Of a stretch of DNA of 44,447 nt, positions 9,388 through 44,055 are shown piece by piece (the stretch's first letter is position 1; each line of letters starts with the position of its first letter). Source of the DNA: Alphaproteobacteria bacterium (GTDB lineage Bacteria; Pseudomonadota; Alphaproteobacteria; TMED109). The position numbers and the translations under genes are program-made. The notes beneath the pieces are model-generated. The model saw nothing but the letters and a program-made list of their open reading frames with translations, did no database searches and had not been told where the DNA came from. The stretch spans positions 46,249 through 90,695 of the forward strand of contig JAGWAT010000025.1 of assembly GCA_021296265.1 (NCBI GenBank). Direction: 5' to 3'.

Positions 9388-9399
9388 AGATCCGAGGCC

Positions 9400-10779
9400 A
9401 TGAACGCCATGAATGACACGAGATCGACCACGATTCGTCTGGGCGCTGCCCTCGTCCTCGGGTGCGTCCTTGCCACCCCCGCTGCCGCCGAGATCTCGGC
9501 GGAGGAGATTGCGCGGCTCGGCGCCGACCTCACGCCGTTGGGCGGCGAACGGACCGGCAATGCCGCCGGCACCATCCCGGAGTGGACCGGCGGCATCACG
9601 GAGCCGCCGGCCGGCTACAACGTCGGTGAGCACCACCGCGACCCGTACACCGCCGATGCGCCGCTGTTCGTCATCGACGCGGGCAACCTGGATGGGCACC
9701 GCGACCGGCTCTCGATCGGACACCAGCGCCTGCTGGAGACGTATCCGAGTTTCAACATGCAGGTCTATCCGACCCGGCGCAGTGCCTCCGTTCCGCAGCG
9801 GATCTACGACGCCACCCGGAACATCGCCGCCACCGCCCGGCTCGTGGACGATGGCAACGGCGTCGCTGATGCCGTGATCGGCATCCCGTTCCCGGTTCCC
9901 GCCAACGGCCTGGAGGTCATCTGGAACCACCTGCTGCGCTACCGGGGCGAGTCGGTGGCGTGCGTCATCGGCCAGGCCGCGGTCACCCGCGGTGGCGACT
10001 TCACGCTGGTCAAGCAGAGCCTCCAGATCGAGCTCCGCTACTCGCTTCCGGAGATGACACTGGACGAGCTCGGGAACACCATGATCCTGTTCAAGCAGGA
10101 GACGCTCGCGCCGGCCCGGCTCGCGGGCGATATCGTCTTGGTGCACGAGACCATGAATCAGTTCCGCGAGCCGCGGAACGCCTGGACCTACAACCCCGGC
10201 CAGCGGCGGGTACGGCGTGCGCCGAACATCGCCTATGACAACCCGGGCACGTCGGCCGACGGACTCCGGACCTCCGACCAGCTCGACATGTTCAACGGGG
10301 CCGTGGACCGGTACGACTGGGAGCTCGTCGGCAAGCGCGAGCTGTACGTCCCGTACAACTCGTACCGGCTGCACGGCGACGACCTCGCGTTCACCGACAT
10401 CCTCCACCCCCTCCACGTCAACCCGGAACTGCTGCGCTACGAGCTGCACCGGGTCTGGGTGGTGGAAGCCACGCTCAAGGAGGGCGCGAGCCACATCTAC
10501 AAGCGGCGCACCCTGTACGTGGACGAGGATTCCTGGCAGATCGTGGTCGGGGACATCTACGACAACCGTGATCAGCTCTGGCGGGTGTCGGAAGCCCACG
10601 TCATCAACTACTACGAGAAGCCGCTGGTGTGGCCGACGCTTGAAGTGCACACCGATCTCCAGGCCGGCCGCTACCTGGCATTCGGCCTCGACAACGAGTT
10701 CCCGATGTGCACGTGGGACCCGGGCCTGACATCCCGCGACTTCACGCCTGCGGCGCTGCGCCGCGCGGGTCGGCGGTGA
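9400..10779 (+). CDS. DUF1329 family periplasmic protein
   Basis: Secreted protein of the DUF1329 family, thought to have a LolA/LolB-like lipid-binding fold and almost always encoded beside DUF1302 partners. The 459-residue product has a signal peptide (hydrophobic core around residues 14-28, cleavage near TPAAA). The mature N-terminus carries the family pattern LGADLTPLGGERTGNAAGTI. It starts 12 bp after the DUF1302 stop; a second in-frame ATG at 9409 may be the real start since GAGG at 9392 is close to the first. Substrate unknown. Confidence 0.88.
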   Translation: MNAMNDTRSTTIRLGAALVLGCVLATPAAAEISAEEIARLGADLTPLGGERTGNAAGTIPEWTGGITEPPAGYNVGEHHRDPYTADAPLFVIDAGNLDGHRDRLSIGHQRLLETYPSFNMQVYPTRRSASVPQRIYDATRNIAATARLVDDGNGVADAVIGIPFPVPANGLEVIWNHLLRYRGESVACVIGQAAVTRGGDFTLVKQSLQIELRYSLPEMTLDELGNTMILFKQETLAPARLAGDIVLVHETMNQFREPRNAWTYNPGQRRVRRAPNIAYDNPGTSADGLRTSDQLDMFNGAVDRYDWELVGKRELYVPYNSYRLHGDDLAFTDILHPLHVNPELLRYELHRVWVVEATLKEGASHIYKRRTLYVDEDSWQIVVGDIYDNRDQLWRVSEAHVINYYEKPLVWPTLEVHTDLQAGRYLAFGLDNEFPMCTWDPGLTSRDFTPAALRRAGRR

Positions 10780-10829
10780 ACCCGGCGCCGGCCGCCTGAA
10801 GCGCCGGCCGCCTCGGCTGCAACACCGGG

Positions 10830-11882
10830 GTGTACCCGTTCCAGCCCTCCTGGAAGCGTGAAGCGCGCGGCGCTCTCGCCGGGGTCGTGACGATCCCGCA
10901 GCCGGCCGCCGCGCCTTCGCGACGCGCGGCGGCATCCCTCGCGATCGTCGGCCTGCTCGCCCTCCTCGCGCCGGGCAGCGCGGGCGCAGAAGCGGCCGTT
11001 CAGGCACCGCTCGCGATCGAATCCCTGCTGCTCGACGGGGCCGTGGTCGGCTCGCGGCTGGTGGTGGTGGGCGCGCGCGGCCATGTGCTGGTATCTAGCG
11101 ACGATGGCGCCAGCTGGACGCAGGCCGAGGTGCCCACCCGCGTCCTGCTCACGGCGGTCCACATGCACGACGAACGCAAGGGCTGGGCCGTGGGGCACGA
11201 CGCGGTGATCCTCCGCACCGACGACGGCGGCGCGACATGGTCGATGGTGCATCAGGCGCCGGAGGAGGAACTTCCCCTGCTCGACGTCTGGTTTCGCGAT
11301 GCGCACACCGGCTTCGCGGTCGGGGCCTACGGCTACTTCCTTGCCACCGAGGATGGCGGCGAGACCTGGACCCCACGGACCATCAGCGCGAACGACTTCC
11401 ACCTGAACGCGCTGGTGCCCGTGGCGGAACCGGCTTCCGATTCGCCGCAGCTGCGGTCGCAACGCCTGTTCATCGCCGCGGAGGCCGGAATCGCCTACCG
11501 CTCCGACGACGGCGGTGCGACCTGGCGCGAACTGCCCTCGCCCTATGCCGGCTCGTGGTTCGGCGGGCTGGCGCTTGACGAGGACCAGCTGCTGCTGGCG
11601 GGGCTCAGGGGCCATCTGTTCCGATCCGCCGACGGTGGCGAGACCTGGACGGAGGTGACCACCAGTACCCGTGCGACCCTGACCGGCGCCGTCCTGCTGC
11701 CGTCCGGCCGGATCATCGTGACCGGCCTCGAGGGCAGCGTGCTGACCAGCGATGACGGCGGGCGCAGCGTGGCCGGCCGCCGGCTGGCGTCGCGCGCGGG
11801 AATCTCGGCTGCGCTGCCGCTCTCGGACGGCGGCGTGCTGCTGGTCGGAGAATTTGGCGTCCGGCGCTGGCCGGGCCCATGA
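10830..11882 (+). CDS. Ycf48/BNR-repeat periplasmic propeller protein
   Basis: Protein with repeated S/T-D-D-G-G-x-T/S-W motifs (SSDDGASW, RTDDGGATW, ATEDGGETW, RSDDGGATW, RSADGGETW), the signature of Ycf48/HCF136-like beta-propellers. In non-photosynthetic bacteria such proteins accompany RND/MMPL transporters, probably as periplasmic accessory factors. No ATG start exists: the candidates are GTG 10830 (350 aa) and GTG 10887 (331 aa); the hydrophobic signal segment ends near GSAGA. Its TGA overlaps the ATG of the following transporter by 4 bp, so the two are translationally coupled. Confidence 0.83.
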   Translation: MYPFQPSWKREARGALAGVVTIPQPAAAPSRRAAASLAIVGLLALLAPGSAGAEAAVQAPLAIESLLLDGAVVGSRLVVVGARGHVLVSSDDGASWTQAEVPTRVLLTAVHMHDERKGWAVGHDAVILRTDDGGATWSMVHQAPEEELPLLDVWFRDAHTGFAVGAYGYFLATEDGGETWTPRTISANDFHLNALVPVAEPASDSPQLRSQRLFIAAEAGIAYRSDDGGATWRELPSPYAGSWFGGLALDEDQLLLAGLRGHLFRSADGGETWTEVTTSTRATLTGAVLLPSGRIIVTGLEGSVLTSDDGGRSVAGRRLASRAGISAALPLSDGGVLLVGEFGVRRWPGP

Positions 11883-14200
11883 CGGAACGCATCGAACGAC
11901 TCCTGTTCGCCCGCCGCCCGCTTGTGCTCGCGGCGTTCGCACTCGTCACCGTCGCGATGGGATGGTCCGCGACGGGGCTGCGCGTGGATGCCGGCTTCAC
12001 CAAGCTGGTGCCCGTCGACCACGAGTACATGCAGACCTTCCTTGAGTATCGCGAAGAGTTCGGCGGCGCGGACCGCGTCCTAATCGCGGTGATGGCACGT
12101 GACGGCGACATGTTCACGCCCGGGTTCTTCGCAGCGCTCCGGCAGGTGACCGATGCAACGTTCTTCCTGCCCGGCGTCGATCGGACCCAGGTGTTCTCGA
12201 TCCTCACGCCGAACGTGCGGTTCATCGAGGTGGTGGAGGACGGCGTCGCGGCCGGGAACGTGCTGCCGGTGGACTTCGAGCCCACCGATGCGGGCTTCGC
12301 GCGGGTGCGGGAGAACATCATCAAGGCCGGCCTGGTCGGCCGCCTGGTGGCCAACGACTTCACCGGCGCGATCGTTGCCGCCAAGCTGCAGGAGTTCCAC
12401 CCCAACACCGGAGAGCGGCTCGACTACATCGAGGTCGCGGGCGAGCTGGAGCGCATCCGCCAGACGGTCAGCGCGGACGTCGATGTGCACGTTGACCTGC
12501 ACGTCATCGGATTCGCCAAGGTGGTGGGGGACATCGCGGCCGGGGCGACCCGGGTGGTCGCGTTCTTCGGGATCGCGGTCCTGATCACCGCGCTGTTCGT
12601 CTACGCCTACACCCGGTCGCTCCGGCTGACCGTGCCGCCGATCGCCTGTTCCCTGGTCGCGGTGGTCTGGCAGCTCGGCGGCGTCACGGCGCTGGGTTTC
12701 GGCGTCGACCCGATGTCCATCCTGGTGCCGTTCCTCGTGTTCGCGATCGGCGTGAGCCACGGGGTCCAGATGGTGAGCTCGATGCGCGCGGAGGAAGCGG
12801 GCGGCGCCAGCGGACTCGCGGCCGCCCGGGCGAGCGTCCGCCGCCTCCTGCTGCCCGGCGCGGTCGCGCTGGCCTCCGATTCGGTGGGGTTCATCACCAT
12901 CTCGTTCATCGAGGTCCAGGTCATGAAGGAGATCGCCACCACCGCGAGCCTTGGCGTGGCGGCGATCATCCTCACCAATCTGGCACTGCTGCCGGTGCTG
13001 CTCTCGTACTTCGAGGCAAACGACGCGCAGCGACGCGCGACGCGCGAGCGCGACGACCTGCTGCAGCCGGTGTGGTCGCGGATGGCGCGTCTCGCACACC
13101 GGGGCCCCGCCGCCGCCGTGATCGGTGTAGCCCTGGTGCTCCTGGCCGCCGGTGCGTACGTGGCGCCCGAGGTGCGGATCGGCGACGAGCACCAGGGCGT
13201 GCCGGAGCTCCGGGCCGAGTCCGTCTACAACCTCGACTCCGCCGTGATCACCGACCGCTTCGATATCGGTGTGGATGTCCTGACGGTGATCGTGGAGACG
13301 GTGGCGGAGGGCTGCATCGACTACGAGGTGATGCGCACCCTCGACGCCTTCGAATGGCACGTCCGCAACGTGGAGGGCGTCCAGTCGGTGCGTGGGCTCG
13401 CCGGCACCATGGGCAGCATCCACGCGATGTGGAACGAGGGCAGCCTCAAGTGGCGGACGCTCCCCCGCAATCGCTACATGATCGTGCAGTCGGTCTCCCC
13501 GGTGCCAACGAGCAGCGGGCTGCTCAACCTCGACTGCAGCGTCATGCCGGTATCGATCTACACGACCGACCACAAGGCCGAGACCATCGAGCGCGTGGTC
13601 GACGCGGTGAAGGCGTTCGACGCCGCGAATCCGGACGACCGCATCGCCTTCCGGCTCGCCTCCGGCAACGTCGGGGTAATGGCGGCAACCAACGAAGAGG
13701 TGGCCGCGTCGCAGTTCCCGATTCTCGCCTACGTGTACGCCGCGGTCATCGTGCTGTGTCTGCTCTCCTTCCGGTCGGCGGCGGCGACCGTGTGCATCAT
13801 CGCGCCGCTCGCGGTGGTCTCCCTGCTCGCCTACGCCCTCATGGGGCTGCTCGAGATCGGCCTCAAGGTATCCACCCTGCCGGTCGTGGCGCTCGGGGCG
13901 GGAATCGGGGTGGACTACGGCATCTACATCTACGGGCGGCTCCGCACCCTGCTCGCGGAGGGCCTCGACTTCGCCACGGCCTACGAGCGGACGCTGGCCA
14001 CCACCGGAGCAGGGGTCGTGCTCACCGCCCTCACCCTGGCCGTCGGGGTCGCGACGTGGATCGTCGCGCCGCTGAAGTTCCAGGCCGACGTGGGCACGGT
14101 GCTGACATTCATGTTCCTGGTCAACATGATCGGAGCGGTCGTCCTGCTGCCGGCCCTGGGTGCCTGGCTGGTCAGGCCAAACCCGACGAAGACTCCCTGA
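11879..14200 (+). CDS. RND superfamily transporter (MMPL/COG1033 type) 1
   Basis: Inner-membrane RND exporter of 773 residues with the usual duplicated layout: one N-terminal membrane helix (about 17-37), a large periplasmic loop, a five-helix block (about 222-380), helix 7 near 400-420, a second periplasmic loop and a final block (about 610-765). The proton-relay region contains GAGIGVDYGIYIYGRL. MMPL/COG1033 members move lipids or other hydrophobic molecules. It is coupled by a 4-bp ATGA overlap to the Ycf48-like gene and closes the DUF1302-DUF1329-Ycf48-RND cassette. A second RND protein of almost the same size lies at 40598. Confidence 0.9.
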   Translation: MTERIERLLFARRPLVLAAFALVTVAMGWSATGLRVDAGFTKLVPVDHEYMQTFLEYREEFGGADRVLIAVMARDGDMFTPGFFAALRQVTDATFFLPGVDRTQVFSILTPNVRFIEVVEDGVAAGNVLPVDFEPTDAGFARVRENIIKAGLVGRLVANDFTGAIVAAKLQEFHPNTGERLDYIEVAGELERIRQTVSADVDVHVDLHVIGFAKVVGDIAAGATRVVAFFGIAVLITALFVYAYTRSLRLTVPPIACSLVAVVWQLGGVTALGFGVDPMSILVPFLVFAIGVSHGVQMVSSMRAEEAGGASGLAAARASVRRLLLPGAVALASDSVGFITISFIEVQVMKEIATTASLGVAAIILTNLALLPVLLSYFEANDAQRRATRERDDLLQPVWSRMARLAHRGPAAAVIGVALVLLAAGAYVAPEVRIGDEHQGVPELRAESVYNLDSAVITDRFDIGVDVLTVIVETVAEGCIDYEVMRTLDAFEWHVRNVEGVQSVRGLAGTMGSIHAMWNEGSLKWRTLPRNRYMIVQSVSPVPTSSGLLNLDCSVMPVSIYTTDHKAETIERVVDAVKAFDAANPDDRIAFRLASGNVGVMAATNEEVAASQFPILAYVYAAVIVLCLLSFRSAAATVCIIAPLAVVSLLAYALMGLLEIGLKVSTLPVVALGAGIGVDYGIYIYGRLRTLLAEGLDFATAYERTLATTGAGVVLTALTLAVGVATWIVAPLKFQADVGTVLTFMFLVNMIGAVVLLPALGAWLVRPNPTKTP

Positions 14201-16582: not shown

Positions 16583-16689
16583 AGGCGCACACGGGCTACA
16601 CGGCAGCGTCTCAGGGGGAGGGCTTCGATGGGGGCTTCTGTTGCCGGGTGCCCCCAAACCCCGCCCTACCGTGTGAAGCGGCAGGGACT

Positions 16690-16970
16690 TGGAACTGTCG
16701 TTCCTCTCACTGGTTAGGCAGCGAGAGCAACCTCACGACTGTTGTCGTTGGCAGTTTTAAGTTCGGTCCGTCACGGCGGTACCATGCCGGGCGAAGGCCC
16801 TCATCTTTCAGCGGTTGTCGATCCTGGATCGCCCCCTCGCCGACCGCGTGACCGGTCGGAAATCTGGTGGAGGCGCCGGGCACTGCCCCCGGGTCCAACA
16901 CGCCTATTGCATGAGACGTTTATCGCCATAGCCGACCGAGGCCAGCACCCACAAGATAGGCGCGTACCGC
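16690..16970 (-). ncRNA. ssrA: tmRNA, circularly permuted two-piece ssrA
   Basis: Read on the minus strand, the acceptor piece comes first. It ends CGCCTCC-ACCA (16875-16865), preceded by a T-arm CCGGG-GGCAGTG-CCCGG (about 16892-16876). A spacer of about 28 nt follows, and the coding piece begins GGGGGCG at 16836. GGGGGCG pairs with CGCCTCC as a 7-bp acceptor stem with one G-U. The coding piece contains an open tag frame GCC AAC GAC AAC ... GCC TAA at 16752-16714, encoding ANDNSREVALAA. Permuted ssrA is typical of alphaproteobacteria. A helix pairs 16898-16907 with 16956-16965 in the acceptor piece. The outer ends are estimates; the acceptor 3' end (16865) and coding 5' end (16836) are well supported. 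Confidence 0.9.
16714..16752 (-). other. tmRNA proteolysis-tag reading frame
   Basis: Twelve sense codons and TAA encode ANDNSREVALAA; with the alanine carried by tmRNA the full tag is A-ANDNSREVALAA. The ANDN start and the terminal ALAA/LAA match ssrA tags, where the first half is read by SspB and the last residues by ClpX or ClpA. A GGAAC/GTTCC hairpin follows the stop. Confidence 0.9.
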
Positions 16971-32971: not shown

Positions 32972-33814
32972 ATGGCTCGAAGACGCGCATCGCGGGCATC
33001 GAAATCGAAATCGCGAAAACCCGGGCGGTCGACGCACCGGGCCGAGACGCGCCGTCCTCTTGCCGGCGCGCAGTCGGCCGGGGCCCCGGGCATCCCCCGG
33101 ATTGCGCTACTGGACGGGTTGCGGGGCGGCGCGCTGATCGGGATGACCGTGTTCCATTTCGCCTACGATCTCATGTTTTTCGGCCTTCGGGAGCCTGGCT
33201 ACACCACGCAATTCCACTGGTGGGCCCTGGCCAAGGCGGTGGCCATCACCTTCCTGTTCGCGACCGGGGCCAGCCTGTATCTCGCGCACGCGGAGGGGTT
33301 CCACTGGAAGCGCTGGGCAAGACGTCTTGCCTGGATCGGCCTTGCGGCCCTGGCCATCACCGTCGTCACCTGGTTCGTCACGCCGCAGGCGTTCGTCTTC
33401 TTCGGGATCCTGCACCTGATCGCGTTTGCGGGTATCGCCGGCCTGGCATTCGTGCGGGCCCCCTGGTGGCTGGCGGCCACCGCTGCGGTGGCGATCCTGG
33501 TCCTCAACGAAACGGTGCAGACCAAGCTGCTGGACGCGCCCATTTGGCATTGGTCGGGCCTGTCCGCCGTCACACCGGTCTCCGGCGACTATTTCCCGGT
33601 GTTTCCCTGGCTGGCCGCGGTTCTCTTCGGGATCGGCGCCGCGAAATGGGCGCACGAGGCAGGCGCACTGCGCGTGCTGGCGATTCCCAGGCTGGAGGGA
33701 CGCGTTGGGCAACTGGTCCGCTTCCTCGGTCGCAACAGCCTCGTCTACTACTTGCTGCACCAGCCCGTGATGATGGGCCTGTTCTGGGTGTGGCTGCAGG
33801 CGGCAGGCCGGTAA
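32972..33814 (+). CDS. DUF1624 (HGSNAT-like) membrane protein
   Basis: Integral membrane protein of 280 residues in the DUF1624/heparan-alpha-glucosaminide N-acetyltransferase-like family, predicted transmembrane acyltransferases. A basic, disordered N-terminus (residues 1-40) precedes the family motif ALLDGLRGGALIGMTVFHFA; about seven hydrophobic helices follow. The closing LGRNSLVYYLLHQPVMMGLF matches the family C-terminus. Start ATG 32972; a start closer to the motif is also conceivable. It stands alone. Confidence 0.82.
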   Translation: MARRRASRASKSKSRKPGRSTHRAETRRPLAGAQSAGAPGIPRIALLDGLRGGALIGMTVFHFAYDLMFFGLREPGYTTQFHWWALAKAVAITFLFATGASLYLAHAEGFHWKRWARRLAWIGLAALAITVVTWFVTPQAFVFFGILHLIAFAGIAGLAFVRAPWWLAATAAVAILVLNETVQTKLLDAPIWHWSGLSAVTPVSGDYFPVFPWLAAVLFGIGAAKWAHEAGALRVLAIPRLEGRVGQLVRFLGRNSLVYYLLHQPVMMGLFWVWLQAAGR

Positions 33815-34542: not shown

Positions 34543-35041
34543 GATCACTTCCTCACACCACAGTTTGATCGAAGCACCGCTCCAAGCAACGCTTCTTGAA
34601 GACATCAACACGGTCGGAGCAGCGACCTGACCACCTGCTCACGCGGCGAGCCACGTACACTACATCGACACGGTGACGTCGGACGACCATACACGCAAAG
34701 AGCAAGCACGCAAGCCGCCCCCTCGAGGGGGCTCGGGTGCCGAGGGCAAATCCGGAACGTTCGGAGCAACAGGCTCACGACCCATCGTGGTCGAGGAACA
34801 GCAACTTCCGGCAACCATGCATCCATGCACGTGACTGCCGAAGTACCGGTGCCCGGGCCCGACACGACGAACGAGCGCGCGGGTACGAAGTCGCAAGTCA
34901 GGGGCGACCAGCAGGCTCTCCTGTTTGGCTCGGACCGTCCGCACAGGGCAAAATTCCGGGCCTAACTCGGGCAAACACCAGACGCGTTGTCGAATCCAGG
35001 CAGTCAAGTGCTGGCGGTTAGCGTGCGCAATCGCGCAAGCC
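34543..35041. other. Upstream region of the cold-shock gene
   Basis: About 500 bp without a recognised gene. Likely includes a long 5' untranslated leader of the csp mRNA, a common feature of cold-shock genes. It contains the perfect palindrome at 34717-34732. Confidence 0.35.
34717..34732. repeat. 16-bp perfect palindrome GCCCCCTCGAGGGGGC
   Basis: A fully symmetrical 16-mer; as RNA it forms a 6-bp G/C stem with a TCGA tetraloop. No T-tract follows on either strand. It could be a leader hairpin of the csp mRNA or a protein-binding site. Confidence 0.45.
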
Positions 35042-35780
35042 TCAGTAGATGCCGGGTATCAGGGCCCGGCGGTGCGCCGGATAGTCGCTGAACGTTTCCA
35101 GATACCAACGATGGTTGCTCCTCGCCCTCGGAGCAAGATTGGCGGCGGTGAACAGCATGAATGCAAGACCGCACGACGACCAGGTCGCAACCGCCCAGCC
35201 CAGCCATTCGAGGATTTCCCCGAGATAGTTCGGGCACGAGACAAACCGCATAGCCAGTCTCGCCGGGCCGGCGTAGGCGCATGAGGGTATTGTCAGCGTG
35301 AAGATTGAGCGCGAGCCCGGCGAGGAAAATCCCGACGCCGATCAGGAATCGCGGGTCGGCGAGCCAATCGGTGGCGTACTCGCCGAATTCCGAGATGAAG
35401 CGGGCGTTGATGTACGCGTTGATCGCATTAAAGAAAAAGCCGGACCCGACCAGCAGCAGGGGCGTCTTCCGGCCGCGTGCCCGAACTCGAAACGGATAGA
35501 CGAACGTCCGGTGCAGATAGTGGCCCTGCCACATGACCAGGAACAGCAGCGGCACGATCTGGAACGCGCCCTTGCCGTCGAGATAGACGACGAGGAAGAG
35601 CGCGGGCGCCGGCAGTTCCATGATGACCCACGCGAGCCTGGTGGAAATGTGTGACCCCCAACCCGCGCCCGCGTAGTGGCGCCCGTAGGGTGCAGCTCTG
35701 CGGAACAGGTACAGGAACGTCAGGACCGCCATTGCGAGGACAGCCCATACCAACATCCCGTGCAGCCGTTCCTCGGTCAT
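35042..35780 (-). pseudogene. Steroid 5-alpha-reductase family (PF02544) membrane protein, frameshifted
   Basis: Membrane-bound NADPH-dependent reductase family that includes SRD5A steroid 5-alpha-reductases. ATG 35780 has AAGGGG upstream and lies 1 bp after the epimerase stop. The first frame has several hydrophobic helices and the motif NLHADNTLMRLRRPGETGYA. Then the reading frame is lost: MRFVSCPNYLGEILEWLGWA and YLETFSDYPAHRRALIPGIY follow in another frame, ending at 35042. The normal family contains about eight residues (pattern YRIPxGG) between these parts; they are missing, so a small deletion near 35250 is likely. NADPH-binding C-terminal residues are conserved but out of frame. Confidence 0.85.
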
Positions 35781-35781
35781 G

Positions 35782-36777
35782 TCATGCCCCTTCACCCAAC
35801 ATGCCGTGTTCGTCGAACCAGCGATACGTGTCCTCGACCGATTCTGCGAGAGGGCGCGGGTGGAACCCGAGCTCCGCCTGCGCCTTGGCGCTGGATATCT
35901 GCCGATTGCCGTAGGCCATGACGCGAACGGCTGCCGGCGTGTAGAGCGGCCGGCGCCCGCGCCATCGATCCAGGACGACCTGGCAGGGTGCCCATAGCCG
36001 GGCCACCCACAACGGGAACTGGAGACGGGGTACGGCTATACCGGTCGCCAGCTGAGAGAGCTCGGCCAATTCGCGCACGGTGTGCCAGTGACCTGAGACG
36101 AGGTAGTTCTCGCCACATCTCGCCTTGGTCTCGGCGGCCATCGTGGCGGCAACGACATCCCGCACATCGACCCAGTCGTAGCCACCCGCGATCAGCGCGG
36201 GAATTCGCCTGCGGTAGAGGTCGAGAAAGACCTGTCCCATAGGTGACGGCTCGCCGTCGTACGGGCCGATCACGCTGGTTGGATTCAGGATCACGGCGTC
36301 GAGGCCCCGCTCGATGCCGCGGCGCACCTCTACTTCGCCGGCGGCCTTCGAACGGTCGTAGGGACCGTGGTGCACGCCGGCGGCGGGTCGGCGGCTCTCA
36401 TCGAGAACTTCGTCCAACGGGTGTTGGTCGTAGGCGTGGATCGAGGAAACGTGAACCAGGCGCCGTACACCACATGCAAGGGCCGCCTCCACGACGTTGC
36501 GTGTGCCCACGACATTCGTGCGATGGAACACCTGCGCCCTGACGGCGTCGATCGAGACCAGCGCGGCCAGATGGAACACGGCCTCCGCGCCCTTGAAGGC
36601 GGCGATCAGCGATTCTTTGTCCAGAATGTCGCCATTGACCCATGCGATATCTAGGTCCGCCGCCGTACCTCGACGCTCCCGATAGATCGCGCGGATCTTA
36701 CGGGGCCCGTACCGGTCAGCCAGGGCCCGCGCCAACACCCCGCCGATCTGCCCGCTCGCCCCCGTGATCACCCGCAC
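35782..36777 (-). CDS. NAD-dependent epimerase/3-beta-HSD-like extended SDR
   Basis: Extended short-chain dehydrogenase of 331 residues. Cofactor motif TGASGQIGG at 5-13, NVVGTRNVVEAA at about 88-99, serines at 111-112 and catalytic YDRSK at 140-144. The family covers nucleotide-sugar epimerases, dihydroflavonol reductases and 3-beta-hydroxysteroid dehydrogenases/sterol C4-decarboxylases. The downstream, coupled steroid-reductase-type gene supports a steroid or isoprenoid substrate here, but the sequence alone does not decide. The start is ATG 36777. Confidence 0.86.
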   Translation of the reverse strand: MRVITGASGQIGGVLARALADRYGPRKIRAIYRERRGTAADLDIAWVNGDILDKESLIAAFKGAEAVFHLAALVSIDAVRAQVFHRTNVVGTRNVVEAALACGVRRLVHVSSIHAYDQHPLDEVLDESRRPAAGVHHGPYDRSKAAGEVEVRRGIERGLDAVILNPTSVIGPYDGEPSPMGQVFLDLYRRRIPALIAGGYDWVDVRDVVAATMAAETKARCGENYLVSGHWHTVRELAELSQLATGIAVPRLQFPLWVARLWAPCQVVLDRWRGRRPLYTPAAVRVMAYGNRQISSAKAQAELGFHPRPLAESVEDTYRWFDEHGMLGEGA

Positions 36778-36989
36778 GGTGTGCCTACAAGCGGCCCGCC
36801 GGCCGGTCCAGAGGGTATTGCTTCGTGGGCTGCGCCGTCGGCATCAACCGCGTTCACACCCGATAGCGGCAACACGTTACGGCACTTTGCGGCATCTGGG
36901 CGGTGGATGCAGCGAGCCTCCCTACGGGTACCTGTATGTGATGAGCGCGGGCAGTGTTGCACACGGGAGAATCGGCCGCAATAACTGCC
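36778..36989. other. Intergenic region between epimerase and TnpB relic
   Basis: No complete gene. Probably holds the epimerase promoter and decayed transposon sequence. Confidence 0.3.
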
Positions 36990-37204
36990 GACGCGGGCTA
37001 GCAACAGACCGCGATGTCAACGCGGCGAAGAATATCCTCTGCCACGGAATCACGGCTACCGGGCGGGACATCGAACCGGTGAAGCTATCGATTTGTCCCG
37101 GTGCGTCCGGGGACATTCTGTATCGACATGTCGCCGGGTTGCCGGGGCAGGACGCGAACCCGTCTATCGAACCGTCGGCGGCAGCCGTGCCGTTGGGTAC
37201 TTAG
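36990..37204 (+). pseudogene. TnpB (IS200/IS605 OrfB) C-terminal remnant
   Basis: The plus strand encodes TDRDVNAAKNILCHGI, the highly characteristic D-x-N-A-A-x-N-I-L motif that closes the RuvC domain of TnpB/OrfB nucleases, then a tail of about 50 residues to the stop at 37204. The zinc-finger cysteine pairs expected just before are no longer recognisable. No TnpA is present. In complete elements the guide (omega/reRNA) lies at this 3' end, so remains of it could persist around 37100-37250. Confidence 0.75.
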
Positions 37205-37296
37205 GAATATAAGAGAGAGTCGCCAGGTAGTCTTGTAGTGAGCGATCGGGGACGGTGGTAGGCTGCGAAGCTGCGGAATCGGCAGGAAAGAGCGTG

Positions 37297-38655
37297 ATGC
37301 GGCAACGAATCGCGGTGGTGGGCGGCGGAGTTTCGGGACTCGGCGCCGCGTGGGCGCTGCATCAGCACCCGGATCGTTTTGACTTCCGCCTGTACGAGGC
37401 CCAGGAACAGATCGGCGGGAACGCCGTTACGGTCGACATGCCGCAGGATGACGGCAGTTCCGTCCCCTTCGACATTTCGGTCACCGCCCTGATCCCGACG
37501 GTCTATCAGCATATCTTGTTGTTGATGGAGCAGTTCGGCATCAGGCTGGTTGATACCAAGTTCAGCTACAGCGTGGGGTACGGCGGTCAGGTGTACGCCC
37601 ATGATTTCGATTCCGAAATCAGGGAACAGCTGCGATCCGAAATCGCCAAGTTCCAGCGACTCCTGAGACGCCTGCACTGGATCGGCTGGCTCAGCCGCCG
37701 TCAGTCCATGTTTCTGAACGCCATCAACCCGTTCAATTACGTCAGCATGCGGACGGTTCTGGACCTGGGAGGCTTTTCCGAAGACTTCAGGTACAAGATC
37801 CTGAAGCCGATGTTCATCAACTTCGTGCTGGCGACGAACGTGTACGACCTACCTGCCGCGCTCTTCTCACGGTATCTCGAGTTCTTTGATATCGAAACGG
37901 CGACACCCATGTGGACGTGGGATCAGGGAACACGGCGCATCTACGAGAACCTGTCCGCCGGTTTTCAGGACAAGATCTACTGCAACCGGCGCGTCTCGAA
38001 GGTCTATCGGGAGGCGTCCGGCGTCGTGATCGAAGACGGCCATGGTGTGAAGGAGACGTTTGACGAAGTGATCTTCGCGTGCAGTGCGGATCAAACCCTG
38101 AAGATCCTGGATAACCCGACCAGGCTTGAACGCTACATCCTGTCGTCAATCCGCTATGACAGTGCCATCCACGAGCACGCGGTCGTCCACTGGGACTCCT
38201 CGGTCCTTCCGGACGACGAGATGAAGGCCTTGACAACTCGGACAAATTATATCGAACAGTACGGCGCGGGGCCGGACAACTACGAAATCACGCACATTAT
38301 CCACAACCAGCAGCGATGGGCCAGACGATCGGATAAGCCCTGCCTAGTGACCTACAACCCGGTCAACCCCATCGATGAAGCGAAGATCATCAAGCGGCAC
38401 CGATTTCGACATGTTGTCCACGACGTACGTCAAGTCGCGCTGCTCGTCTACCTGTTCCGCTTCATACAGGGCAAGCGGCGCACGTGGCACTGCGGCGCAC
38501 ACACGCTGGTCAACAGCCAGGAAACCTGCTTCATCACCGGCCTGGCCGCCGCCAGACAGCTGGGCGCCGACTACCCCTTCAGCGACCCGGCGGCCAGACG
38601 GACATTCAACTATTTCGGAAGCATCTTGCACGGGTCGCGCTTCCGACGAGCGTAG
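37297..38655 (+). CDS. FAD-dependent oxidoreductase (amine oxidase-like, COG2907)
   Basis: Flavoprotein of 452 residues starting at ATG 37297 after GGAAAGAG. The dinucleotide-binding motif RIAVVGGGVSGLGAAWAL is at about 4-21, followed by YEAQEQIGGNAVTVD. The rest resembles COG2907-type NAD(P)/FAD-binding proteins, including AHTLVNSQETCFITGLAAAR near the C-terminus, where flavin contacts usually occur. In other bacteria COG2907 genes often lie beside DUF1295/cyclopropane-synthase genes, so a fatty-acid role is an alternative to a sterol role. It is convergent with the Rieske gene, 147 bp apart. Confidence 0.86.
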   Translation: MRQRIAVVGGGVSGLGAAWALHQHPDRFDFRLYEAQEQIGGNAVTVDMPQDDGSSVPFDISVTALIPTVYQHILLLMEQFGIRLVDTKFSYSVGYGGQVYAHDFDSEIREQLRSEIAKFQRLLRRLHWIGWLSRRQSMFLNAINPFNYVSMRTVLDLGGFSEDFRYKILKPMFINFVLATNVYDLPAALFSRYLEFFDIETATPMWTWDQGTRRIYENLSAGFQDKIYCNRRVSKVYREASGVVIEDGHGVKETFDEVIFACSADQTLKILDNPTRLERYILSSIRYDSAIHEHAVVHWDSSVLPDDEMKALTTRTNYIEQYGAGPDNYEITHIIHNQQRWARRSDKPCLVTYNPVNPIDEAKIIKRHRFRHVVHDVRQVALLVYLFRFIQGKRRTWHCGAHTLVNSQETCFITGLAAARQLGADYPFSDPAARRTFNYFGSILHGSRFRRA

Positions 38656-38802
38656 TCGCCCAGACTGGTCGTCCACCCGCCCGTCCGCGTGGCCGGCCAA
38701 GGAGCGATCCCACACACCACCGCTCCATGCGCCGCCGCGGGGCGGAGGCGAACTGCAGGGCGCGCAACCAACACCGGCATATCCTGGCGACCGTGAGCGC
38801 CG

Positions 38803-39888
38803 CTAGCCGCCCTCGCTGACGCGGTCGTCGGGGTAGAACTGCCTGCAATAGCGCCGGTAGCGGCCAATGTCGCCGTCGGAACGACTCAAGCGAGGATGCG
38901 GCCGGTACTGCCGTCGTTGCCAGATCACGACATCCTGCTGCACGTCCTGCATTTGCGCGGAGATCACCAGCCTATTCATGACCCAGGTGCGGAACCTCGG
39001 CGGCAGGAAGCCGAGGCCAACGATCAGACGCTTGGGCCTTCGTATTTCCCGGATCTGACTGGCCAGCGACAGATCCACCAACGTGCCGTCGACGGGCGTG
39101 GCCAGCACCCACAGGCGAGCCTCCATGCCAATGGAGTGCTCCTGGATGTCGACGAACGAGTAACCCAGCCCGTGGACGTGGGCGGCGGCCGACACACGAT
39201 AAACGCTACCAACGAATCCCGCGATGGGGCCGCGGCGGATGAATTCGAAACGGGCGAGGAGATGCGAACCGTCCACCGTCGTGGAACCGATGGGCTGCAC
39301 GTTGCCGTAGCCGTGCACATACCGCAGGTGCGCGAGGTCTACGGAGTTCTCCGCGATCTCCTGCACATGACCGGGAAAGCGGACGGTCCGGATTTCCAGA
39401 TCGCACCAGTCGTTTCCGGCCGGCGGCTCTTCCGGCAGTTGCCATTGCGGCGGGCGACCAGCGGCGCTCCACCACGCAAAGACGAGGCCTTGAATTACCC
39501 GCGTATCATAGACGTTCAGCCCCAAAGATTTCGGCGGCGGTGCGTACGGTGTCGCGACACAGTTGCCGACGATATCGTAGGTGAAGCCGTGAAAGGGACA
39601 GACGAGACAGCCATCGCGCACGCGACCGCCGACGGTCGGGCCCAGGGCGGAACCCATGTGCGGGCATACGGACTCGGCCACGCAGACTCTTCCGTCGTCG
39701 TCGCTCCATGCGACGATGTGCCGCCCAAGCCACTGTCTTTCAAGCAGCATCCCCTTGGCCAGGGAGCGTTGACTCGCGACGAAGTACCACCCCTCGGGAA
39801 ACGGGAAAAGCGGCGCCGCCCCGTCACCCACGCTGCAATCGCCATTCAAGTCTTGACATGTTCTTGGACATGTTGACGCCGTTGTCAC
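38803..39888 (-). CDS. Rieske [2Fe-2S] oxygenase, DAF-36/KshA-like
   Basis: Terminal oxygenase of 361 residues. The Rieske cluster ligands are C75-P-H77 (VCPHMGSALG) and C97-P-F-H100. The mononuclear iron motif lies in EIAENSVDLAHLRYVHG, with Asp184, His187 and His192. The HVQEIAENSVDLAHL segment and the WYFVAS opening closely resemble cholesterol 7-desaturase (DAF-36/Neverland) and bacterial KshA-type steroid oxygenases. Start is uncertain: GTG 39888 is the longest, while TTG 39849 or GTG 39831 (VGDGAAPLFPF) are plausible; a direct repeat lies in the disputed stretch. Needs separate electron-transfer partners, none seen here. Confidence 0.88.
   Translation of the reverse strand: MTTASTCPRTCQDLNGDCSVGDGAAPLFPFPEGWYFVASQRSLAKGMLLERQWLGRHIVAWSDDDGRVCVAESVCPHMGSALGPTVGGRVRDGCLVCPFHGFTYDIVGNCVATPYAPPPKSLGLNVYDTRVIQGLVFAWWSAAGRPPQWQLPEEPPAGNDWCDLEIRTVRFPGHVQEIAENSVDLAHLRYVHGYGNVQPIGSTTVDGSHLLARFEFIRRGPIAGFVGSVYRVSAAAHVHGLGYSFVDIQEHSIGMEARLWVLATPVDGTLVDLSLASQIREIRRPKRLIVGLGFLPPRFRTWVMNRLVISAQMQDVQQDVVIWQRRQYRPHPRLSRSDGDIGRYRRYCRQFYPDDRVSEGG
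39853..39877. repeat. Direct repeat TTGACATGTT / GGACATGTTGAC
   Basis: The 8-mer GACATGTT occurs at 39855-39862 and 39867-39874, 12 bp apart, i.e. close to one helical turn. If the Rieske gene starts at 39831 or 39849 the repeat lies at its promoter and could be an operator; if the start is 39888 it is coding. Confidence 0.4.
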
Positions 39889-40597
39889 AAAGGATTGTCA
39901 GACCGAAAACACGCAATCGCCTCGGTCCCCAATGCATTGGCATTCCATCCCCGTCGCGCCAAACGAAGTTGAGGGCGTGCTGTCCCGACGGCGAACCCGG
40001 CTTCCGGGCAACGTCTCGGCCCGCTGCCGTCCACACGACTCCAAATAGCACCGATATTGCGCGACAACAAGCTGAGACGCGGCCTCCAAGAAGCGGTCGG
40101 AGCCGGGTGCAGGCCACTAGTTCGGCGGCGTGTTCTCTGTCAGGTAACCGGCTGTCGCCCAATTCGTAGACTTGTGCAGACGGTTGCGGCACTACCCCGG
40201 GACATCCTTTTGATACTTGATATTGGAACCGAGTTCCACGACATCCTGCTGTGTCTTGCGCTGGCACGGAACCCCAGCTCACCCCCCATCAGACGGTTGC
40301 CGCGCCGGCAACCGACCCCGGAATGTCCGGTGGGCACGGAGACCGCCATTCGACAACCCACCTTGACCGCACTGGAGCGCACACCTGTCGCCCGCTTCCT
40401 TTGCACGCGGTCCACGCCGGCTCAAACCCCATCGTACGCGCCGTTCGCGGCACACGGCCGCCTTCAGTATCTGAGTCGTGCCTCTTGCGGACGTTTCTTC
40501 ACGATACATTTTCTGTTAAGGCGGCGGAAGGCTGTCCGTGGCGGGGCTGCGGGCAAGCTGCTATACCTGAATCACGCTCCCAGGCCAGCACGCGGTC
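39889..40597. other. Divergent intergenic region Rieske / RND transporter 2
   Basis: About 700 bp with no gene I can support. Codon usage and motifs in its open frames look random. It should contain the promoters for the Rieske gene (minus) and the RND-LolA-like pair (plus). Base composition is somewhat lower in G/C than the flanks, e.g. around 40205-40235 and 40495-40515. Confidence 0.4.
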
Positions 40598-42925
40598 ATG
40601 ACATTAGATTCCTGCATAGCGCTCGTCGTCGGTCGCCGCTGGCTGACCATCGCGCTCTCGCTAGTCGCGATGCTGGCCCTTGCCGCAGGCGCCCAATACA
40701 TCACGATCGTTGACGTCGACGTTCGAAATCATTTCAGCAAAGATGACCCGCACATCGTCGCGCTCGACCAGATGGAAGCCACCTACTCGCTCTCCGACGC
40801 CGCGCTAGTGGTAGTGGCGCCGCAAAGCGGTACCGTCTTCACTCCGGAAGTGCTCGTCGCCATCGAAGAGCTGACCGATCAGCTATGGCGAACGCCCTAC
40901 GTCACGCGCGTTGACTCGATCACGAATTATTCACACAGCGAAGGCCTCGAGGACGAGCTGATCGTCGCACCCCTGATCGACGATGCCAGTTCCCTGAGCG
41001 GCAGCGATATCGAACGAATCCGGGAAATTGCGCTCGGTACCGAAGAAGTCGCAGGGCGCTTCATTTCCAGGGACGGTCGCGTCGCCGGGTTGATCGTCAG
41101 CGTTGCGCTTCCCGAGGACCGACAGCTGGGAAGATTCGAGGTTACCGACTTCCTCCACGGAACTGCCGCCGAGGCGAGAGAGCAGTATCCGACCATCGAC
41201 TACCACCTGACCGGCGAACTCATCCTCAATCGCGCCATGAAGCAGGCGATTGACGATGACATGGGTGTCCTCGCGCCCATCACGCTCGGTACCATGCTAC
41301 TCGTCGCCATCGTCCTGCTGCGCTCGCTGTGGGGGATGGTGGCGATTCTCGTGATGCTGGTCGCGGTCATGCTGTCCGCGCTGGGCTTCACCGGCTGGGT
41401 CGGGCTGAAGTTGTTCGGCGAGAGCGGCGCGGCGCTATTCGTCTTGATGGCGGTCACCGTCGCGCATTCGGTGCACATAATCGAGGGGATGCGGGCGGGG
41501 CTGCGCCAGGGCATGGACCGTCCACAGGCGGCGATTCATTCCCTGCAGGTCAACCTGTGGCCAGTTCTCCTGACATCGGTGACGACCGCGATCGGCTTCC
41601 TCAGCCTCAATTTCGCGGACATGCCGCCGTTTCGGGTGATGGGCAACATGGTGGCATTCGGCGCGATGGCCGCCTTCGTCTTGTCGGTCACGCTTCTGCC
41701 AGCGTTCCTGTCCGTTGTGCCCATACGTGGCGGGTCCGCACGTCCGGGAAAAGCAGACGTCTTCGATCGCCTGGCGCGGTTTGTCATTTCCTACCGCACG
41801 ATCCTGCTTTGGTCCGTCGCCGCCGTGATGGTCGTGCTTATCGCCGGTATCTCGCGAATTGAGCTCCAGGAAAACTGGCTGGAGCTGCTCGACGAGAGTT
41901 ACGAGTTCCGGCGATCCACGGATTTCGTGAGCGAGAACTTCACTGGCGTGGAGACGTACGAGTACTCGCTCAACTCCGGGCGGGAGGGCGGCATCACGGA
42001 TGTCGAATATCTCCGGCAGGTGGATGCCTTTGCGGAGTGGAGTCGGACGCAGCCGGAGGTTGCCCACGTCTTCGCCATCTCCGACATCATGAAGCGCCTG
42101 AACAAGAATCTGCATGGCGACGATCCCGACTTCTACGCGCTGCCGGCCGATTCCGACCTTGCTGCGCAGTACCTGCTGCTCTACGAATTTTCCCTGCCGG
42201 TCGGACGCGACTTGAACAACCTTATCGATGTGGAACGGTCGTCGACGCGTGTGACGGTCGTGCTCAAGAGCCTGACCACCCGAGAAAAGGTTGATCTCGA
42301 CAACCGCACGCAAGCCTGGTTCCGGCAGAACGCGCCGGACCTGGAAACCCAGGCCTCGGGAGTTGCCGTTGTCGGGGCCCATTCAATTCAACGGAACATC
42401 GAGGGCATGCTGCGGGGCACGATCGCGGCGATGGCCATCGTTTCCCTGCTCCTGCTCTTCGTCTTCAGAAGCGTGCGTCTCGGCCTGATCAGCCTGATCC
42501 CCAACTTTGTGCCCGCCGCCATGGCGATGGGCCTCTGGGGATACATGGTGGGAGAGGTCGGCGTCGCGGCGTCAGTCGTCACCGCCATCGCGTTCGGCAT
42601 CATCGTGGACGATACGATCCACTTCATGACCAAGTACGTCGGGGCCAGGAAACGCGGGCTGTTGCCGTCGGAGTCCGTTCAGGCCGCCTTTAGCGCGGTC
42701 GGCAAGGCGCTGACGGCAACGACGGTCGTATTCGCACTGGGATTCATGGTGTTCGGGGCGTCGGGAATGGTGACCAACCAGGCGCTCGGCCTGCTCGTCG
42801 GGATCACGGTCATCGTGGCCCTGCTGGCGGATTTCCTGTTCCTTCCGCCGTTGCTGATGGCGCTTGATGCAACGAAGGAAACGACCGCGCAGATCAGGGA
42901 ACGACTGAAGCGGTCGACCGCATAG
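40598..42925 (+). CDS. RND superfamily transporter (MMPL/COG1033 type) 2
   Basis: Inner-membrane transporter of 775 residues with the duplicated RND plan: N-terminal helix (about 13-33), periplasmic loop, helices about 222-372, helix near 405-425, second loop, and helices about 612-760. The second half contains AFGIIVDDTIHFMTKYV, with paired aspartates in the proton-relay helix; the first half has LMAVTVAHSVHIIEGM in the corresponding place. COG1033 proteins together with LolA-like partners are thought to move lipids between membranes; a bacterial sterol transporter (BstA) belongs to the same superfamily. Start ATG 40598 with weak ribosome-binding site. Confidence 0.9.
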   Translation: MTLDSCIALVVGRRWLTIALSLVAMLALAAGAQYITIVDVDVRNHFSKDDPHIVALDQMEATYSLSDAALVVVAPQSGTVFTPEVLVAIEELTDQLWRTPYVTRVDSITNYSHSEGLEDELIVAPLIDDASSLSGSDIERIREIALGTEEVAGRFISRDGRVAGLIVSVALPEDRQLGRFEVTDFLHGTAAEAREQYPTIDYHLTGELILNRAMKQAIDDDMGVLAPITLGTMLLVAIVLLRSLWGMVAILVMLVAVMLSALGFTGWVGLKLFGESGAALFVLMAVTVAHSVHIIEGMRAGLRQGMDRPQAAIHSLQVNLWPVLLTSVTTAIGFLSLNFADMPPFRVMGNMVAFGAMAAFVLSVTLLPAFLSVVPIRGGSARPGKADVFDRLARFVISYRTILLWSVAAVMVVLIAGISRIELQENWLELLDESYEFRRSTDFVSENFTGVETYEYSLNSGREGGITDVEYLRQVDAFAEWSRTQPEVAHVFAISDIMKRLNKNLHGDDPDFYALPADSDLAAQYLLLYEFSLPVGRDLNNLIDVERSSTRVTVVLKSLTTREKVDLDNRTQAWFRQNAPDLETQASGVAVVGAHSIQRNIEGMLRGTIAAMAIVSLLLLFVFRSVRLGLISLIPNFVPAAMAMGLWGYMVGEVGVAASVVTAIAFGIIVDDTIHFMTKYVGARKRGLLPSESVQAAFSAVGKALTATTVVFALGFMVFGASGMVTNQALGLLVGITVIVALLADFLFLPPLLMALDATKETTAQIRERLKRSTA

Positions 42926-43239
42926 GCCCGGAACGCGGTTGCACCGGTCGATATCTGGCAGGAGATGCAGCGCTCGCACGTAGGGACGGGCGCTGACGGC
43001 AGCGGCCGGTTGGTGTTCCGGGGTACTGCGCCACCACCACATTTGGATATCGCAGCAGGCTCGACTCCTGCTGTACGAGAATGGCCGTCCCGGGGCAGAT
43101 GGTCAGGCGCGTAGCGGGAATCGTGCTACCATGCCCGAACAGGCCCAGAAGTCGATGCGGCCCGCTCACTGCTCGGGCCTTTCCATCGAGTTCCTACGTT
43201 CCCTGTTGCGGCCACGGCGATCGACAGGAGGCAACGGTA
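42926..43239. other. Gap between RND 2 and the LolA-like gene
   Basis: About 310 bp. In-frame extensions of the LolA-like gene (ATG 43081 or 43099, GTG 43123) reach into it, but the sequence looks non-coding. An AGGAGG at 43226-43231 is the clear signal. Confidence 0.4.
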
Positions 43240-44055
43240 ATTCGCGCTTCTCTTCCACGCTCGATCCTGGCGTCATTCGGGATCCTAGTTGCCATCTTTG
43301 CCTGGGCGGCCGAACCTCCGGTCGGGCAGGCGGAAACTGCCGAAGAAGCAGGGATTCGGATCGCGACCGAAGCCCGCGAACGCCAACAGGGTTTCGGCAA
43401 CTTCACTTCTAACTTGATCATGACCCTGCGCACCAAGCGGGGACAGGAAAGCAATCGCGAAATGCGCCTGAAGGTCATGGAGGTCGCGGACGACGGGGAC
43501 CGCAGCGTGTTCGTGTTCGACCGCCCGCGCGACGTCAAGGGAACCGCATTTCTCGTTCACGCCCACAAGGGCGAGCCAGACGACCAATGGCTCTATCTCC
43601 CCGCCCTGAAACGGGTCAAGCGCATCAGCTCCGCAAATCAATCGGGCTCATTCATGGGCAGCGAGTTCTCGTACGAGGATCTCGGTGCCGTGGAAGTCGA
43701 GAAATTCACGCATCGGTACCTGCGGGATGAGCCTTGCGGCGAATTCCAGTGCCATGTTCTGGAGCGAATCCCAGTAAGCGAGGATTCGGGGTACTCCCGT
43801 CAAGTGATCTGGCTTGACAAGGACGAACTGCGCTCCATGCAGATTCAGTACTTTGACCGCAGGGAAGAGCATTTCAAGACGATGGTCATGGAAGACTACG
43901 CACAGTATCTCGATCGTTTCTGGCGAAGCAGCAAGATCACGATGACCAACCATCTCACGGGCAAGAGCACCGTGCTGGTCTGGTCGGACTACGCGTTCGG
44001 GACCGATCTTGACGCTCGCGACTTCACCCGGACGGCGCTCCAGCGGGTGCGATAG
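43240..44055 (+). CDS. LolA-like outer-membrane lipoprotein-sorting protein (COG2834)
   Basis: Periplasmic lipid-carrier-type protein, 271 residues if started at 43240. A signal peptide is evident (hydrophobic core SILASFGILVAIFAWAA, cleavage near VGQA). The conserved stretch DDQWLYLPALKRVKRISSAN followed by SGSFMGSEFSYEDL is diagnostic of this LolA-like family, which is regularly encoded beside RND transporters. The only strong ribosome-binding site, AGGAGG at 43226-43231, is followed 8 bp later by ATT (43240). ATG, TTG and GTG are absent at that spacing, so an unusual ATT or ACG start, or a start at ATG 43081/43099 or GTG 43123, must be considered. Confidence 0.85.
   Translation: MRASLPRSILASFGILVAIFAWAAEPPVGQAETAEEAGIRIATEARERQQGFGNFTSNLIMTLRTKRGQESNREMRLKVMEVADDGDRSVFVFDRPRDVKGTAFLVHAHKGEPDDQWLYLPALKRVKRISSANQSGSFMGSEFSYEDLGAVEVEKFTHRYLRDEPCGEFQCHVLERIPVSEDSGYSRQVIWLDKDELRSMQIQYFDRREEHFKTMVMEDYAQYLDRFWRSSKITMTNHLTGKSTVLVWSDYAFGTDLDARDFTRTALQRVR

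Follow-up and report, generated by a model that had tools for sequence, protein, structure and literature searches.

A putative sterol-tailoring and transport module with a KshA-type Rieske oxygenase and a GOLPH3-P450 fusion in bacteria that appear to live in sponges

The DNA analysed here (the window) is a stretch of 44,447 nucleotides, positions 46249-90695 of contig C12 (GenBank JAGWAT010000025.1), from a metagenome-assembled genome (MAG) of an alphaproteobacterium of the TMED109 lineage; the genome comprises 2.54 Mb in 77 contigs and is 93.8% complete. Toward its end lies a block of six genes for an SRD5A-type steroid 5-alpha-reductase, a short-chain dehydrogenase/reductase (SDR), a flavin (FAD) enzyme, a Rieske oxygenase, an RND/MMPL transporter and a LolA-like carrier. 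The original prediction, made from the sequence alone, regarded this block as a possible, perhaps partly decayed system for modifying and transporting a steroid or other polycyclic lipid. All six genes are found in their predicted places and each family call is backed by Pfam; five are intact and the SRD5A gene is broken. The GC content of the block is 0.621, compared with 0.673 for the remaining window, and dN/dS values of its genes against congeners (the genus is represented here by six further genomes) are 0.07-0.25, the RND, LolA and FAD genes having the lowest (0.07-0.14). The window end falls within the gene cluster, the remainder of which continues on the same contig.

The SRD5A-type gene (35042-35780, minus strand) is a pseudogene. 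Within the open reading frame (ORF) at 35004-35795 (minus strand), the Pfam Steroid_dh (PF02544) match is limited to profile positions 2-78 of 150. DNA alignment with three congener loci (L029, L030 and L031) reveals a 23-bp deletion at about position 35246, which is real in this assembly and shifts the frame; the segment removed reads IPRGGGYR or IPQGGGYR in the three loci, and the out-of-frame remainder stops at about 35042, the start coordinate of the original prediction. PF02544 matches two pieces in this genome and the full profile in all six congeners, so that a full Steroid_dh profile in an intact frame is not seen for the window copy. The likely SRD5A ATG (35780) lies one base past the stop of the SDR gene (35782-36777, minus strand) and congeners keep the same spacing, which bears out the direct coupling of the two genes proposed at the outset. 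The SDR is of the extended type with a YxxxK motif (Epimerase, 118 bits; 3Beta_HSD, 71 bits) and belongs to the HpnA/SdmB superfamily, scoring higher with the NCBIfam model for HpnA (217 bits) than with that for SdmB (NF052578; 201 bits), both below cut-off. By family logic, an SDR and an SRD5A would together convert a 5-en-3-beta-ol to a 5-alpha-3-oxo sterol. For an intact congener SRD5A, the nearest solved structure is PbSRD5A (7c83; 284 bits), human SRD5A2 giving 153 bits. Of the Q-E-Y motif of PbSRD5A, Glu is kept and, by alignment, also Tyr, whereas Gln is replaced by Met in eight of nine copies, the eight that are readable (six genomes, two counted twice). According to the available text (PMC7815742), progesterone is reduced by PbSRD5A in vitro, whereas reduction of androstenedione is weak and that of testosterone is not detectable. 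A membrane acyltransferase-like gene (HGSNAT_cat) at 32972-33814 (plus strand) keeps its place next to SRD5A in each of the three congener loci that extend this far.

The Rieske oxygenase (38803-39888, minus strand) contains Rieske and KshA_C domains above the Pfam cut-offs and the predicted iron motif HVQEIAENSVDLAHL. Residues C75, H77, C97, H100, D184, H187 and H192 are invariant in 52 sequences; the start codon is uncertain, four of five congeners having their called start 13-19 residues further in. Among solved structures the best profile match is KshA (4qdc; 2.7e-25), and the top six Foldseek matches of an AlphaFold model (pLDDT 82.5, from 52 sequences) are all KshA, some of the entries being steroid-bound. 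Likeness to KshA thus extends to domain architecture, fold and metal motif, but identity is only 22-24% and the gene here adjoins those for a sterol methyltransferase (SMT) and a P450 (see below). Profile and fold say that this is probably a steroid-type oxygenase and do not specify the target carbon. An assignment as SdmA was rejected: the protein scores 34.6 bits on NF052579 (cut-off 600), compared with 387 and 415 bits, also sub-cut-off, for two SdmA-like proteins encoded in operons of related MAGs, and carries KshA_C where the operon SdmA-like protein of locus L113 carries VanA_C. When 85 Rieske rows are placed in a maximum-likelihood tree with two SdmA-like rows as the root, these and two Rieskes of a third type fall outside an 81-row clade that includes the window protein (support 93, below the starred level). 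The expected placement with steroid families holds as far as the nearest solved structures are the steroid enzyme KshA; DAF-36, to which the iron motif had also been likened, and Neverland are not among the rows of the tree. Five congeners (G022-G026) encode, near an SMT, the third type of Rieske (KshA_C; for instance L032 8040-9092 and L102 8363-9349), which shares 25-27% identity with the window protein. The present genome keeps a similar SMT neighbourhood (L120) and has only a weak second Rieske match, elsewhere in the genome.

The remaining genes of the block encode the FAD enzyme (37255-38655, plus strand; 466 aa), the RND/MMPL transporter (40598-42925, plus strand; 775 aa) and the LolA-like periplasmic carrier (43081-44055, plus strand). 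The FAD enzyme belongs to the amine-oxidase superfamily (Pfam Amino_oxidase); its nearest solved structure is LkcE (6f7l; 2.6e-31) and the next is 2b9w, deposited as a putative aminooxidase, which we take to be a fatty-acid isomerase. The transporter (Pfam MMPL) is 94-95% identical in four congeners and 82% in a fifth. It was rejected as BstA (23 bits on NF045600, cut-off 1400) and as HpnN (109 and 53 bits on TIGR03480 and NF052374, cut-offs 752 and 1100). The carrier matches LolA_like (PF17131) with 206.8 bits against a gathering score of 30 and structure 3bk5 with 258 bits over residues 89-322; its true start is probably further downstream than 43081. A second transport-like block lies at 7186-14200 (plus strand) of the window and includes DUF1302, DUF1329 (LolA-like), YCF48/BNR and another MMPL-type RND, which shares about 22% identity with that of the six-gene block. 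At 16623-16957 (minus strand), ARAGORN finds a permuted-form tmRNA gene with the tag ANDNSREVALAA.

The strongest link to sterols comes from two genes just past the window end. The SMT gene (3101-4126 of locus L025, which covers the same contig) begins about 0.4 kb beyond the window and encodes Methyltransf_11 and Sterol_MT_C domains (77.6 bits vs 21.7). Adjoining it, 1.6-3.8 kb beyond the window end, is a gene for a 723-aa fusion of a GPP34 (GOLPH3) domain and a P450 (L025 4294-6465). As both are on the same contig, the lipid reading of the block is sharpened to a sterol reading. Two traces of insertion sequences are present within the cluster. In this genome, a partly masked transposase-like frame between LolA and SMT was recognised by eye (L025 2650-3126); in congener G027, a TnpB/OrfB-like gene separates Rieske from RND (L031 11820-13097).

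The GOLPH3-P450 is an unusual architecture, combining a Golgi adaptor fold with a P450 that keeps the heme Cys and the ExxR motif and does not keep the acid-alcohol pair. In sequence, the closest relative of the P450 part is CYP51; a fold comparison made with a model of the L049 homologue (pLDDT 83.1) ranks CYP184A1 first and CYP51, including lanosterol-bound entries, next. An identity of the fusion P450 with CYP51 was rejected, since a separate P450 (p450, 198 bits), which neighbours an SdmAB-like pair in the Nitrospirales locus L093, shares just 22% identity with the fusion P450. Among 60 homologues, ExxR is present in 60 of 60 and the heme Cys in 58 of 58 (two gaps). P450s canonically have an acid-alcohol pair in the I-helix; here the position is Asp (33), Ser (23) or Thr (4), followed mostly by Ala, Gly or Gln, and a Tyr three residues earlier is invariant. 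Because the pair is not kept, unusual oxygen chemistry is suggested. In the GPP34 part, a Trp aligned with the GOLPH3 Trp is invariant in 40 sequences. The GOLPH3 Trp and the Arg following it presumably act in PI4P binding; in one alignment Val faces this Arg, and a PI4P-type function of the domain is unsupported.

In the genus, Rieske, RND and LolA genes occur together in all five congener loci that carry the Rieske gene. The block of G023 and G026 also has an ERG2/Sigma1R-type gene and a gene for a 296-aa protein without a Pfam match, possibly an outer-membrane barrel as judged from its sequence; an OMP_b-brl-matching gene precedes the Rieske gene in L093. The order in G027 is SRD5A, SDR, a 330-aa protein similar to the 296-aa one, FAD, Rieske, the TnpB-like gene, RND, LolA and SMT.

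Synteny in relatives is conserved. Searching GTDB contigs with patterns derived from the Rieske alignment gave 297 relatives; the best 80, all titled MAG, were kept, including four (L033, L034, L035 and L037) that are apparently contigs of congeners already in the genome set. Flanks of at most 10 kb on each side were used (full in 41 of 80), and a partner was counted at 38% identity or more over half the query. GPP34-P450 lies near Rieske in 56 of 80 loci (34 of the 41 with full flanks), SMT in 29, FAD in 28, RND in 20 and LolA in 17. At least one of six partners is present in 65 loci and at least two in 50. By the same criterion, each of 15 other window ORFs used as controls, some of which are probably not real genes, reaches 0-2 of 80 loci; if E≤1e-10 is the sole requirement, the count for one control, the other RND of the window, rises to 19.

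Sterol cyclases go undetected in many of the carriers. The survey covered 57 genomes, namely the present one, six congeners and those belonging to 50 of the 80 loci, the maximum allowed, with preference mostly given to longer contigs; the four congener contigs named above are among the 30 loci not included. Bit score and the length of the open frame decided whether a match was sorted as oxidosqualene cyclase (OSC) type or hopene-cyclase type, and six genomes whose matches were weak or divergent (including G070, 81 bits) were counted as neither. The present genome has two SMTs and no squalene/oxidosqualene cyclase match in a PF13243 search, and genome profile searches find no ERG4/ERG24 (PF01222) and no ERG2. 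An OSC-type match is present in 19 of 57 genomes, two partial matches in one (G024) and none in 37, 30 of which have an SMT match (one a 22-residue fragment). In total, SMT matches occur in 50 of 57 genomes, that of G077 being the 22-residue fragment. Hopene-cyclase-type matches occur in 19 of 57 (that of G061 judged from a contig-end fragment), and 19 of 57, the present genome and 18 others, have no cyclase match of either type. Among eight chromosome-titled records carrying the Rieske gene, seven have no OSC-type match. Hence, in many carriers the module is not tied to sterols made by the cell itself. The most likely sterol source would be the host or the host's food. The lack of a polycyclic lipid source, which was originally considered fatal to the idea, holds for this genome as far as PF13243 shows, but we read it as pointing to an outside source, and the idea is not thereby refuted. 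All 57 surveyed genomes contain the GPP34 domain, with 1-9 matches per genome; none of 14 control genomes has it. Forms other than the P450 fusion (seen in loci L116, L117, L118 and L119) are single-domain proteins and a type of 393-423 aa, whose C-terminal extension of about 190 residues gives no Pfam match over cut-off.

Where an OSC is present, as in congener G023, its gene belongs to an operon distinct from the block. That of G023 encodes an SdmB-like SDR, an SdmA-like Rieske (387 bits), ERG24, an OSC fusion and ERG2; SdmB-like proteins of such operons score 297 and 303 bits with SdmB as the best model. Each of three OSC-type frames scanned (L113 4767-8213, L114 8166-11576 and L064 4061-7666; 1136-1201 aa) joins squalene epoxidase to OSC, and OSC-type open frames of 1138-1413 aa are found repeatedly across the 57 genomes.

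The module is spread over many phyla. By the submitters' NCBI labels, the 80 loci come from 11 named phyla plus six unlabelled records, and those with a GPP34-P450 partner from eight phyla; the closest class-named Rieske relatives are alphaproteobacterial MAGs. Of 385 genomes drawn evenly from the same class, five carry the Rieske gene (E≤1e-40), three of them from this genus, and six carry GPP34-P450 (E≤1e-60), two of them from this genus. The jk18x series, among the closest Rieske relatives, is named in the available text of a paper on Ircinia sponges (PMC9531527). The record title of L063 includes 'sponge'. Most other MAG series (RHO, COS, APA, SB, MPM, OX638 etc.) presumably come from sponges as well. 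The carriers appear to be bacteria of many phyla living in sponges.

Two Bryobacterales (Acidobacteriota) copies share 85% identity with the window SDR, and those of congeners 76%; the intact N-terminal part of SRD5A (123 aa) is 93% identical to a Latescibacterota copy, 85% to Bryobacterales and 77-79% to congeners. The GPP34-P450 of this genome is 75% identical to that of a Rhodospirillaceae record, 69% to that of a Binatia record and 51% to that of congener G023. Between enolase of one of these Bryobacterales genomes and the closest match that the present genome offers, identity is 52%. With respect to G023, dS values are 0.84 and 0.61 for SDR and SRD5A and 0.30-0.41 for Rieske, RND, LolA and SMT. 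The simplest reading of these figures is that parts of the block were exchanged between phyla at different times.

Taken together, we consider it probable, at about 0.6, that the block makes up one half of a horizontally shared sterol-tailoring module of sponge-associated bacteria, with SMT and GOLPH3-P450 beyond the window as the other half, and that the module would remodel and transport acquired sterols. In this scheme, sterols from the sponge or its diet would reach the bacterial cell, where SMT would alkylate the C24 side chain. The KshA-type Rieske oxygenase, the GOLPH3-P450 and the FAD enzyme would work on the rings or the side chain, which they may oxidise, desaturate or isomerise. The SDR would convert the 3-hydroxyl to the 3-oxo-delta4 form and SRD5A the latter to the 5-alpha form, a branch that would have been lost in this genome. 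Transport of the sterol between membranes would fall to the RND pump and the LolA-like carrier, joined in congeners by a small protein that may be an outer-membrane barrel. The module would spread across phyla by horizontal transfer, often in genomes without a sterol cyclase. The gene families, their linkage, the mixing of phyla and the missing cyclase matches are what the data show; it is the substrates, the order of steps, any membrane tethering, the host origin of the sterol and the direction of transport that we infer here.

Several observations, including some raised with the alternatives below, weigh against this reading. SRD5A and SDR lie near Rieske in just five and four of 80 loci (two of each being congener contigs) and ERG2 in two; the RND and LolA loci are mostly from Pseudomonadota; and 15 of 80 loci, some on short contigs, have no partner. 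Given these counts, SDR, SRD5A, RND and LolA are optional across loci and the module is a mosaic. Within the genus, the G027 block has no GPP34-P450 match, and the sixth congener, G022, has no strong Rieske match yet has an SMT close to a 696-aa GPP34 frame. No SMT is found in seven of the 57 genomes, and of the seven chromosome records without an OSC-type match five have no SMT, one has a fragment only and just one, G040, shows a full match; in the best assemblies the link to SMT is accordingly weak, which slightly lowers the confidence given above. In the 19 genomes with an OSC-type match, the module may be used in de novo sterol synthesis. MAG bins may be incomplete or mixed, and mis-binning could mimic part of the transfer signal.

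RND-LolA pairs are widespread for other lipids. The pair could be a generic lipid exporter that neighbours an unrelated sterol enzyme set by chance, in line with RND and LolA lying near Rieske in just 20 and 17 of 80 loci and with the second, different RND block of the window, whose distant RND homologues occur in 19 of 80 loci at E≤1e-10. However, both genes lie beside Rieske in five of five congener loci, and RND recurs near Rieske in records labelled Nitrospinota, Nitrospirota, Binatota and Dadabacteria while controls reach at most two of 80 loci; a chance neighbourhood is therefore considered unlikely. Quite unlikely is de novo sterol biosynthesis in which the cyclase and the ERG24/CYP51/SdmAB operon are absent only through MAG incompleteness. 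The present MAG is indeed 93.8% complete, G023 and G025 carry a squalene epoxidase-OSC fusion, that of G023 within its SdmB-SdmA-ERG24-OSC operon, and G024 has its two partial matches; but no cyclase match is found in four of seven genomes of the genus at 92-97% completeness, and both the seven OSC-free chromosome-titled records and the unmatched ERG24 and ERG2 of the present genome point the other way.

KshA is a catabolic enzyme, and the Rieske protein, nearest to it by profile and fold, could in principle open ring B in the 9,10-seco pathway of steroid catabolism, its neighbours feeding degradation. A KshA cluster comprising sponge MAGs only is among steroid degradation genes reported in the available text of PMC5790920. 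In difference from KshA, no ring-cleavage dioxygenase over cut-off is found in the seven genomes of this genus, the weaker matches being in G025 (1.2e-11) and G026 (6e-4). The model concerned, TIGR03213, which we take to be HsaC, has no match at E≤0.001 in the present genome (KstD was not searched) and reaches its cut-off in one of 22 genomes tested. SMT, ERG2 and SRD5A are anabolic or remodelling enzymes in known systems, and catabolism is judged decidedly improbable. A hopanoid or other non-sterol terpenoid lipid as the substrate would fit the sub-threshold similarity of the SDR to HpnA and of the RND to HpnN, a weak similarity of the FAD enzyme to HpnE, and the hopene-cyclase-type matches in 19 of 57 genomes; given the 19 genomes, the present one included, without a cyclase match of either type and a linkage to SMT, SRD5A and ERG2 that favours sterols, it is considered very unlikely.

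Sterol tailoring of the kind proposed here resembles several known systems; the comparisons refer to the portions of the cited texts that were available. The sterol genes of Methylococcus (SdmA/SdmB with BstA/B/C) share the logic of Rieske, SDR, RND and periplasmic carrier, but BstB is PhnD-like and BstC is in a TRAP T-component family, whereas the carrier here is LolA-like (PMC10202945; PMC10942540). The kinship to SdmA, SdmB and BstA suggested in the original prediction is not borne out by the scores given above for the Rieske, SDR and RND proteins. The clusters of steroid genes (CSGs) of Ircinia symbionts (Kelly et al., 2022; PMC9531527) likewise come from sponge symbionts of multiple phyla, have ERG2 in several cases and SMT or FDFT1 at the flank, and were proposed to spread horizontally. 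Their core is ERG24-CYP51-OSC; that described here is the KshA-type Rieske, GOLPH3-P450 and FAD enzyme, and the present genome has neither a PF13243 nor a PF01222 match (CYP51 was not searched genome-wide). The SMT clusters of Brown et al. (2023; PMC10070321) are also sterol clusters of sponge symbionts, some of whose SMTs were assayed and make 24-isopropyl sterols, and are described with erg genes and sdmA/sdmB; some of those sdmA homologues could be window-type Rieske genes. 'Rieske' is absent from the main texts of PMC9531527 and PMC10070321 and 'Golgi' from that of PMC9531527, and no relevant open-access literature surfaced on GOLPH3/GPP34 with P450 or sponge. Bacterial sterol clusters in sponge symbionts are thus already published (PMC9531527; PMC10070321); what appears to be new is the proposed module for tailoring and transporting sterols independently of a cyclase, together with its GOLPH3-P450 fusion, neither of which was found described in the texts covered.

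Sponge sterols (24-isopropyl, 26-methyl and others) underlie the debate on the oldest animal biomarkers. Symbiont SMTs are able to make the 24-isopropyl side chain, and methylation of host-acquired sterols by Chlamydiae was left open (Brown et al., 2023; PMC10070321, available text). An SMT and a tailoring module without a detected cyclase lead to the prediction that acquired sterols are edited by bacteria, and make the wider question testable. Tentatively, sponge bacteria of many phyla (11 labels for Rieske, eight for Rieske with P450) might exchange a module for editing host sterols that needs no cyclase, with dedicated RND-LolA-barrel traffic; ring and side chain would be edited by the KshA-type Rieske, the unconventional GOLPH3-linked P450 without the acid-alcohol pair, the LkcE-like FAD enzyme, SMT and SRD5A. 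If this is true, unusual sponge sterols and some fossil biomarkers would be joint products of host and symbiont, built on host skeletons.

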